This document shows positions 972 to 4,243 of a DNA stretch of 33,247 nucleotides, one piece after another. Position numbers and translations under genes: made by a program. Numbering within the stretch: position 1 is the stretch's first letter; the number at the start of each line of letters is the position of its first letter. This DNA is from Butyricicoccus sp. (lineage in GTDB: Bacteria; Bacillota; Clostridia; Oscillospirales; Butyricicoccaceae), in NCBI GenBank assembly GCA_029257685.1, contig JARIAV010000270.1, positions 1-33,247 of the forward strand, written 5' to 3'. The notes under the pieces are model-generated. The model made no database searches. It saw only the letters and a program-made list of their open reading frames with translations, and was not told the origin of the DNA.

Positions 972-997
972 TATAGACAGTATTGGGGGTTATACCG

Positions 998-3403
998 TTG
1001 AATAAATACGATCATAAGGCTGTCGAAGCCAAGTGGCAGCAGGTTTGGGATGAAAAGGAATGCTTCGTTGCACCGAATGATTATTCCAAGCCGAAATTCT
1101 ATGCGCTTGTTGAGTTCCCGTATCCGTCTGGTATGGGTCTGCATGTAGGCCATCCGCGTTCCTATACCGCGCTCGATATCGTTTCCCGTAAGAAGCGTAT
1201 GCAGGGTTACAATGTACTGTATCCGATGGGCTGGGATGCTTTTGGTCTGCCAACTGAGAACTTCGCCATCAAGAACCATGTACATCCGGCAGAGGTCACC
1301 AAGCAGAACGTGGCACGCTTCAAGAGCCAGCTCAAGTCGCTTGGTCTGTCCTTTGACTGGTCGCGTGAGATCAACACCACCGACCCGTCCTATTATAAGT
1401 GGACGCAGTGGATCTTCTTGCAGCTGTTCAAAAAGGGCCTTGCTTACAAGAAAGAAATGGCGGTCAACTGGTGCACCTCCTGTAAGTGCGTGCTGGCAAA
1501 CGAGGAGGTCGTAGGTGGTACCTGTGAGCGCTGCGGCTCGGAGGTCGTGCGCAAGACCAAGAGCCAGTGGATGCTGGGCATCACCAAGTATGCACAGCGT
1601 CTGATCGATGATCTCGATGAAATGGACTTTGTCGATCGCGTCAAGACACAGCAGAAGAACTGGATCGGCCGTTCCACCGGTGCAGAGGTCGATTTTACGA
1701 CCACAGAAGGGGACAAGCTGACCGTGTATACCACACGTCCGGATACCCTTTTCGGTGCGACCTATATGGTCATCTCGCCGGAGCATCCGATGGTAGAGAC
1801 TTGGGCAGATAAGCTCAAGAACATCGACGCAGTCCGCGCATACCGCGAGGAAGCCGCACGCAAGTCTGACTTTGAGCGTACAGAGCTCAACAAGGACAAG
1901 ACAGGCGTGCGTCTGGACGGCGTTATGGCGATCAATCCGGTCAACGGCAAGCAGATCCCCATTTTCGTCTCCGACTATGTACTCATGACCTATGGCACGG
2001 GTGCGATCATGGCAGTTCCGGCACATGACGACCGTGACTGGGCATTTGCAAAGGTGTTCGATCTGCCCATCGTGGAGGTCATTGCAGGCGGCAATGTACA
2101 GGAGGCTGCATTCACCGATGTGGCAACCGGTACACTCGTCAATTCCGATTTCCTGAATGGTCTTTCCGTCGCGGAAGCGAAGAAAAAGATCATTGCCTTC
2201 CTGACTGAAAAGGGCATTGGACACGAAAAGGTCAACTACAAGCTGCGTGACTGGGTATTCTCCCGTCAGCGTTACTGGGGCGAGCCCATTCCGCTGGTCT
2301 CCTGTGAAAAGTGCGGCTGGGTGCCGCTGCCGGAGGATCAGCTGCCGCTGACCCTGCCTGATGTGGATTCCTATGAGCCGACCGAGAACGGAGAGTCGCC
2401 GCTGGCCAAGATGACCGATTGGGTCAATACCACCTGTCCGTGCTGCGGTGGTCCGGCAAAGCGCGAGACCGATACCATGCCGCAATGGGCAGGCTCCTCG
2501 TGGTACTTCCTGCGCTATATGGATCCGCACAATGACAAGGAGCTCTGCTCCAAGGAAGCACTGGAATACTGGAGTCCGGTCGATTGGTACAACGGCGGCA
2601 TGGAGCATACCACACTGCACCTGCTGTACAGCCGCTTCTGGCATAAGTTCCTGTATGATATCGGTGTTGTCCCGACCAAGGAGCCCTATGCAAAGCGCAC
2701 CTCACACGGTATGATCCTCGGCGAGAACGGCGAAAAGATGTCCAAGTCCCGCGGCAATGTCGTCAATCCGGACGAGATCGTCGAGACCTACGGCGCGGAC
2801 ACCATGCGCCTCTATGAAATGTTCATCGGTGACTTTGAAAAGGCTGCGCCGTGGTCCTCTGCGTCCATCAAGGGCTGCCGCCGCTTTGTCGAGCGCGTCT
2901 GGAACCTGTTCGAGAAGGTACAGGACGGGGACGCATACAGCGCAAACAATGAGATCATGCTGCACAAGACCATCAAGAAGGTCTCGGAGGACATCGAGAA
3001 CCTCAAGGCAAATACAGCGATCGCTGCTCTCATGAGCCTTGTCAATCAGTTCTACGATCAGGGCGTCAACCGTGCAGAGTATGAGACCCTGCTCAAGATC
3101 GTGAACCCGTTCGCACCGCATGTGACCGAAGAACTGTGGCAGATGCTGGGGCATGATACCGTGCTGTCCCTCGAGGCTTGGCCGGAATATGATGAGGCGA
3201 AGACCGTGGAATCCTCCATCGAGATCGGGGTACAGGTCAACGGTAAGATCAAGTCTACCATCCAGCTGCCCTTGGACTGCGAGCAGGAGCAGGCGGTCGA
3301 GATCGCGCTGGCTGACGAAAAGGTCAAGAACGCGGTGGCTGGAAAGAATATCGTCAAGACCATCGTGGTAAAGAATAAGATCATCAATTTGGTCGTAAAA
3401 TAA
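998..3403 (+). CDS. leuS: Leucyl-tRNA synthetase
   Basis: This class Ia aminoacyl-tRNA synthetase charges tRNA-Leu in the cytoplasm. It is ~801 residues long, as expected for bacterial LeuRS. The HIGH signature is HVGH near residues 49-52 and the KMSKS loop is present near 580-584 ([10 protein letters not shown]). A zinc-ribbon-like cysteine cluster (CTSC...CERC) lies near 159-182 and a second one (CEKC...CPCC) follows later. The CP1 editing region carries the threonine-rich stretch [12 protein letters not shown] and the later [15 protein letters not shown] motif. I chose the TTG at 998 because GGGGGT at 985-989 is at ribosome-binding distance. The in-frame TTG at 983 overlaps that site and is less likely. 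No separate promoter or T-box is seen, so it is probably read through from rsfS. Confidence 0.97.
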
Positions 3404-3739: not shown

Positions 3740-3752
3740 GTATGTTTTCTTC

Positions 3753-3793
3753 AAAACACCGAAGTGAGATCGCTTCGGTGTTTTGTTTTTTTG
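3753..3793 (+). terminator. Intrinsic terminator of rpsU
   Basis: A 12-bp perfect stem (AAAACACCGAAG at 3753-3764 with CTTCGGTGTTTT at 3773-3784) encloses an 8-nt loop and is followed by a T-run. It lies 14 bases after the rpsU stop. Confidence 0.93.
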
Positions 3794-3869
3794 TTCATAG
3801 AATCTTCATAGAACGTTCAAAAATAAGTCATAATTCCGACAAGATTCCGACACAAAGTTACGATACAAT
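3794..3869 (+). promoter_or_regulatory. Activator-type promoter: six 11-nt-phased direct repeats plus TACAAT
   Basis: Half-sites start every 11 bases exactly: TTCATAGAATC (3794), TTCATAGAACG (3805), TTCAAAAATAA (3816), GTCATAATTCC (3827), GACAAGATTCC (3838) and GACACAAAGTT (3849). A -10-like TACAAT follows at 3864-3869, 11 bases after the last GACA. No recognisable -35 hexamer exists at the right distance; repeats occupy that place. Direct repeats with 11-bp phasing just upstream of a -10 are the known architecture of PhoB/PhoP (OmpR-family) dependent promoters. The identity of the regulator is inference. Confidence 0.6.
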
Positions 3870-3875
3870 ATAGAC

Positions 3876-4130
3876 AGTCAAGAACAAGAGATTTCCCCCA
3901 TCTCAAGTTCCTGACTGATTACCCCAATCCCCCTACTTTTTTTCTTACCCCTTCAAAATTGCCTTCTGCCGTATGTCCCCCATGCGGCAGAATCAAGGCA
4001 ATGCCAACATCCAGGAGAATCTTTTCTCCTTTTATGATACCTTTTTCTTTCTATCCCCCTTCTTTTTTTTCATCCTTACTTTTTTTGAGTATAACGCCCA
4101 GACGAATGTTCGTCTGGGCGTTATACTTTT
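3876..4130 (+). ncRNA. Candidate C-rich small RNA with three hairpins and an intrinsic terminator
   Basis: No protein gene is present here. The expected transcription start (about 3876) falls one base before a 16-position imperfect hairpin (3877-3892 with 3900-3915) whose loop is TTCCCCC. A second hairpin (3958-3975 with 3981-4002, four-base bulge) again puts CCCCC in its loop. A third (AGGAGAA 4013-4019 with TTCTCCT 4024-4030) precedes the terminator. Between the stems lie further unpaired runs such as TACCCCAATCCCCCTAC. In total there are four CCCCC runs and two CCCC runs in about 190 bases, plus three T7-T8 tracts. C-rich loops that pair with purine-rich ribosome binding sites are known in several Gram-positive small RNAs, and this is the likely mode. 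Alternative: a leader for parE, but the terminator and the separate parE promoter argue against it. Confidence 0.55.
4088..4130 (+). terminator. Strong intrinsic terminator ending the candidate small RNA
   Basis: A perfect 19-bp stem (AGTATAACGCCCAGACGAA at 4088-4106 with its complement at 4109-4127) and a minimal loop are followed by TTTT. It ends before the parE promoter and separates the small-RNA unit from parE. Confidence 0.85.
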
Positions 4131-4213
4131 CCGCAAAAACAAAATATTTCCTGTCCGATCTATGCGTATGTGTATGCAGGAAACCGGAAAAATTCAGATA
4201 AACCGCTTTTTAT

Positions 4214-4243
4214 TTGACTTAAATGGGTTTGCTGGTATATAAT
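4214..4243 (+). promoter_or_regulatory. Promoter for the parE-parC operon
   Basis: TTGACT (4214-4219), an 18-bp spacer, then TATAAT (4238-4243). It is about 35 bases upstream of the parE start. Confidence 0.8.

Follow-up and report, generated by a model that had tools for sequence, protein, structure and literature searches.

A conserved structured RNA with accessible C-runs downstream of rpsU in gut Clostridia, probably controlled by an OmpR/PhoB-family response regulator

The stretch of DNA analysed (hereafter the window, 33,247 nucleotides) belongs to a member of a small genus of gut Clostridia related to Butyricicoccus, called g1 here and represented by six genomes including the window's own. 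The gene order at the locus is leuS, rpsU, the gene of a C-run RNA and a gene predicted, from its protein sequence, to encode a type II topoisomerase subunit. The C-run RNA lies at positions 3875–4131, between the terminator of rpsU and the promoter of the topoisomerase gene, and because of these two flanking signals it is regarded as an independent unit. Together with them, a -10 element, a repeat array and a terminator hairpin form the sequence-level basis for independent transcription, and we propose a stand-alone transcription unit of about 255 nt, with predicted ends. Comparisons extended to 12 species: the window species, four congeners, a fifth congener (G005) and six species of genus g4. 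The features of the locus are as follows.

3752–3785, plus strand: intrinsic terminator of rpsU, a 15-pair stem then TTTTTTTGTT; upstream boundary of the sRNA unit.
3793–3859 (67 nt), plus strand: 11-nt repeat array, GTTCATAGAAT CTTCATAGAAC GTTCAAAAATA AGTCATAATTC CGACAAGATTC CGACACAAAGT; probable tandem sites of an OmpR/PhoB-family response regulator.
3864–3869, plus strand: -10 element TACAAT, in columns invariant in the five-species alignment, without a -35 hexamer; predicted start at about 3876.
3875–3917, plus strand: stem-loop 1, loop UUUCCCCCA; z = -5.56, with covarying pairs.
3918–3955, plus strand: linker 1, unpaired, with CCCC, CCCCC, CCCC and a U-run; unpaired probability 0.99–1.00 in the window species.
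3958–4002, plus strand: stem-loop 2, loop UCCCCC; z = -7.33, 4 of 12 apical-stem pairs changed on both sides.
4013–4030, plus strand: stem-loop 3, without a C-run in the loop of the window species; z = -3.62.
4031–4086, plus strand: linker 2, pyrimidine-rich, AUCCCCCUUC, with a C-run at 4055–4059; unpaired probability 0.98.
4087–4131, plus strand: terminator hairpin, 19 pairs and a short U-tract; z = -11.47, 8 of 18 aligned pairs changed on both sides.
4214–4243, plus strand: promoter of the downstream topoisomerase gene, TTGACT-18-TATAAT, 11 of 12 matches; downstream boundary.

The segment 3875–4131 was predicted to fold with an energy of -86.2 kcal/mol (z = -13.65), a value that none of 200 shuffled sequences equalled, and three of the four hairpins were individually more stable than all shuffles. 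The sequence-only reading of this DNA had placed four CCCCC and two CCCC runs in loops or linkers; their positions were exact (CCCCC at 3895, 3929, 3977 and 4055, CCCC at 3922 and 3948), and all were predicted to be unpaired, with mean unpaired probabilities of 0.80–1.00 in the ensemble of the window species. The contrast with the flanks that it had noticed was also found: the RNA contains six runs of at least four C per 256 nt, the maximum of the window, compared with a window mean of 0.39 per 256 nt, and this density was significant against composition-preserving shuffles of the RNA itself (P = 0.00035). The terminator had been described as a perfect 19-bp stem; it has 19 pairs, 18 of them Watson-Crick, and its closing pair at 4087/4128 is G-U, so that 'perfect' was nearly right. 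The U-tract that follows is UUUU then C. The transcript had further been said to start one base before a hairpin. Hairpin 1 opens with the pair C3875-G3917, which puts the start predicted from TACAAT at the very edge of this hairpin.

The 11-nt repeats that had been reported are real and reach further than was claimed, over 3793–3859, where the lag-11 self-identity was 0.61 compared with 0.28 after shuffling (0 of 20,000 shuffles as high). The array ends about 10 nt upstream of the -10 element. Repeats of 11 nt ending just upstream of the -10, without a -35 hexamer, are the layout of OmpR/PhoB-type activation, and direct repeats in this very arrangement were found here, which makes it probable that the sRNA promoter is driven by a response regulator of this family. 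The array is conserved in four congeners, and its inner repeat pair varies by species with both copies changing together (TTCCGACA twice or TTCGGACA twice), as expected for a binding site. In the other g1 promoters, those of g4 and that of G005, the best lag was 11 or 22, not all of these being significant alone. No second place matching the inner repeats with fewer than three mismatches was found in g1; matches of the TTCATA type near pepF, citrate synthase, an HtrA-like gene and ylxM-ffh were weak and indistinguishable from chance. The stress control proposed earlier is plausible; the stress itself cannot be inferred from the repeats, which point to an OmpR/PhoB-type response regulator.

Whether this regulator might be PhoP, the RNA being a member of the PhoP/PhoR regulon that serves phosphate starvation, was considered, and we find it doubtful. 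Such a role would be compatible with the mechanism favoured below, an 11-nt spacing of half-sites that stop shortly before the -10 is the PhoB/PhoP geometry, TTCATA resembles the core of the Escherichia coli Pho box, and the g2 version of the promoter has TTTACA. However, the same spacing is common to many other OmpR-family regulators, and the pst operons of the same family and genomes carry TTTACA-N5-TTTACA or TTTACA-N5-TTCACC, whereas the sRNA promoter has TTCATA and CGACA repeats. Because the pst promoters carry TTTACA-type boxes instead, a Pho identity is not supported.

The sequence-only reading had staked itself on the conservation of the stems and C-runs in relatives, and both are conserved in 12 species of two genera. 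A DNA search detected the C-run RNA in four of the five other g1 genomes, at the same place downstream of rpsU, and matched no genus outside g1; the RNA is single copy in five of the six g1 genomes. Linker 1 (38 nt) was almost invariant in the five-species alignment of g1, where the length of its U-run alone varies, and the C-run of linker 2 was retained in all five congeners. G005 and the six g4 species carry diverged versions in the same slot. In these, a 5' hairpin with a CCCC(C) loop is followed by the linker ACUCCUUUAUCCCCUAUUUUUUACCCCUCUUU, by middle hairpins that are not always present and may or may not have C-loops, and then by a second linker and the terminator. The loop equivalent to that of stem-loop 3 has CCCC(C) in some g4 species, and the terminator loop has CCCCC in three of the six. 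C-runs of at least four were almost all predicted to be unpaired in 12 of 12 species, although the stems differ and C-loop hairpins come and go; partly paired runs were observed in G003 (unpaired probability 0.47–0.67) and once at L159 (0.25). Multiple accessible C-runs in loops or linkers, a feature of C-rich trans-acting sRNAs that block Shine-Dalgarno sequences, were found throughout the set.

The covariance model built on g1 weakly recognised the syntenic loci of G005 and g4 (E 2e-4 to 0.5). Conversely, the g1 loci were matched weakly by the model built on g4 (E 2e-4 to 1 for both directions together). Because these cross-model scores are weak, the homology of the g1 and g4 RNAs rests on synteny, promoter layout and the shared linker layout. 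The g1 model (R1), run on 87 genomes of the family and 295 of the order, and the g4 model (R2), run on 394 genomes of the order, each matched their own genus alone, with strict filters that can miss weak members. C-rich regions in the Oscillibacter-like loci L014 and L015 were set aside, as these regions seem to lie antisense to converging genes.

The conserved structure, the C-runs and the repeat-filled promoter suggest that the RNA is probably a signal-controlled translational repressor, like C-rich sRNAs elsewhere. Our main reading, to which we give a probability of roughly two in three, is that of a single-copy, response-regulator-controlled and probably Hfq-assisted trans-acting sRNA, the C-runs of which would pair with G-rich ribosome sites. 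An OmpR/PhoB-family response regulator would bind the 11-nt array and activate the promoter; the C-runs of loop 1, linker 1, loop 2 and linker 2 would act as redundant seeds pairing with G-rich Shine-Dalgarno regions; pairing would block ribosomes and lower the translation of several mRNAs, and Hfq bound at the U-rich linkers may help. Hfq was found in five of the six g1 genomes; the copy in the window's own genome is incomplete and lies at a contig end. The redundant accessible C-runs, the U-rich stretches and the presence of Hfq in the genus are consistent with an RNA that represses translation in trans. An alternative is that the RNA does not pair with mRNA but serves as a sponge or scaffold for a protein, either Hfq or one that binds C-runs or pyrimidines; such an RNA would likewise be expected to carry several unpaired C/U-rich elements of similar kind, copies of which are gained or lost from species to species. 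We consider this alternative improbable, as the near invariance of linker 1 is more than a simple C-run motif needs, and the closest studied designs, sX13 and LhrC, pair with mRNA.

Covariation was measured in the five-species alignment, a small sample: 17 of 55 pairs had changed on both sides, compared with 7.5 +/- 1.9 in shuffled alignments (0 of 500 as high), and paired cells amounted to 90%, compared with 38–48% when partners were slid. G-U cells outnumbered A-C cells, 26:7 in g1 and 25:4 in g4, which identifies the plus strand as the functional RNA. A minus-strand G-rich element, for example a G-quadruplex or an antisense transcript, could be read into the six G-runs complementary to the C-runs, but it is very unlikely, since these ratios indicate that the plus strand folds, most of the gaps between G-runs exceed what a canonical quadruplex allows, and promoter and terminator are both read on the plus strand. 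That the region is instead a small protein gene is hardly credible: ORFs of 80–89 codons overlap it in the window, but neither their start nor their frame nor their length is conserved in congeners, they extend through the terminator, the alignment contains single-base indels in U-runs, and no conserved reading frame was found in the C-run RNA across congeners. Judged by these comparisons, the C-run RNA gene is real and conserved, and it specifies a structured, non-coding RNA from a promoter that looks regulated.

Base pairing of this RNA with G-rich ribosome sites is plausible. In the window's own genome, AGGGGGAT followed by ATG at ribosome-site distance occurred at 21 places, compared with four for the reversed control, and murG, accA and gmk (gene names read from translations) recurred among the G-rich sites, in two species each. 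These counts show that pairing partners exist, nothing more: ribosome sites rich in G occur widely for unremarkable reasons, and none of the target sites could be shown to follow the presence of the RNA. The G-rich site of leuS, which had been cited in support of pairing, lost that role. Its GGGGG is also present in genera g2, g5 and g7, which are without the C-run RNA, so it cannot count as coevolution, and leuS as a specific target was rejected as evidence, GGGGG being family-wide.

Independently of the RNA, it was observed that the leuS leader (window 980–1003) reads ATTGGGGGTTATACCGTTGAA unchanged in four g1 species, and that an unusually G-rich leuS site (nearly always at least GGGGG) with a TTG start is present in several genera of the family (L320, L321, L323, L324–L329, L331, L333–L337 and L339). 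An OmpR-family response regulator gene (L278; G000:C255:3322-3341, minus strand) has the leader AGGGGGATACATTGGGGATG (AGGGGGAT...GGGGATG), which was predicted to pair with linker 1 at -30.8 kcal/mol. Autoregulation through this regulator was set aside, as the repeats of its promoter, TCTTAAAGAAATCTTAAGA, differ from those of the sRNA.

Other sequences occupy the place downstream of rpsU in other genera. In g2 and g5 a different conserved RNA-like element, with a core AAATCTGTTCGGCCCTGTGGGACGGAATACCGCGCAGGCTCCCGGACAGTCC preceded by AAGGGAACAACCCC, lies behind a repeat-array promoter; the versions at L168, L170 and L173 matched nothing in Rfam at E up to 0.5.

L170, 1216–1355, minus strand: g2/g5 element; also at L173, L176, L177, L178, L182, L184, L188 and L194.
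L168, 1197–1336, minus strand: g2/g5 element.

In g3 (L161 and L008; also L186 and L190) a possible structured element, GGAGCAGAAATC... with CCCGATCCGGACTCTGTAA or GGTTCGATTCCTGTG, precedes a gene for a small hydrophobic protein; in L161 the element had no credible match in Rfam. At L180 and L181 (G009 and G010), long repeated intergenic units of the type CGAAGAAACACCCCGCCCGGCTAAGAAGCCTCGCCGCAGGCGGGGATTCGTGCCATAAGGGGTGTTTC follow rpsU, in several copies in G010.

One tentative idea is that the slot after rpsU is a regulated 'sRNA socket', in which similar repeat-array promoters would drive different structured RNAs in each genus, the C-run RNA in g1 and g4 and, in g2 and g5, a conserved RNA that looks unrelated to it. 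Among the C-run RNAs, hairpins presenting C would be gained, lost and moved, with the dose of accessible C-runs kept. To our knowledge, little is known of the regulatory RNAs of butyrate-producing gut Clostridia. The 12 species, with diverged stems and persistent accessible C-runs, amount to a naturally replicated experiment, and this set would allow the idea of seed redundancy, raised by sX13 and LhrC, to be tested by evolution and with simple mutants. Finding the regulator would connect translation control in these bacteria with a two-component signal.

With respect to known families, Rfam gave no match in the window at gathering score and no credible match in 3750–4200 at E up to 10, and no description of the C-run RNA was found in the literature; it apparently represents an undescribed sRNA family of narrow range. 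The 6C RNA (B11) of Actinobacteria has hairpins presenting C runs. Its covariance model did not match at gathering score and was absent even at E up to 10; it belongs to another phylum, and the C-run RNA also bears C-runs in long unpaired linkers. RsaE/RoxS and FsrA of Bacillota similarly have C-rich single-stranded seeds against Shine-Dalgarno sequences, but differ in architecture and locus, and Rfam scores were far below gathering: 19.4 bits versus 79 needed for RsaE/RoxS (RF01820), and, for FsrA (RF02273), which was not listed for the window, 27.7 bits versus 80 in the relative L152. In sX13 of Xanthomonas, stable hairpins with 4C/5C loops resemble those of the C-run RNA, and the C-rich loops and G-rich target motifs near the start codon are both needed for repression (PMC3771888); sX13 differs in its length (115 nt), its presence in Gammaproteobacteria, its unrelated locus, the confinement of C-runs to loops and its Hfq-independent activity, and no homology is claimed. 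LhrC of Listeria likewise carries several C-rich sites that are redundant and lie in loops or in a single-stranded stretch; three of them pair with the lapB ribosome site, and its transcription requires the LisRK two-component system (PMC4132741). LhrC is present in five copies at another locus, with the shorter C motif UCCC, whereas the C-run RNA is single copy. By analogy with these systems, the C-run RNA most likely works like the known C-rich sRNAs that block Shine-Dalgarno sequences.
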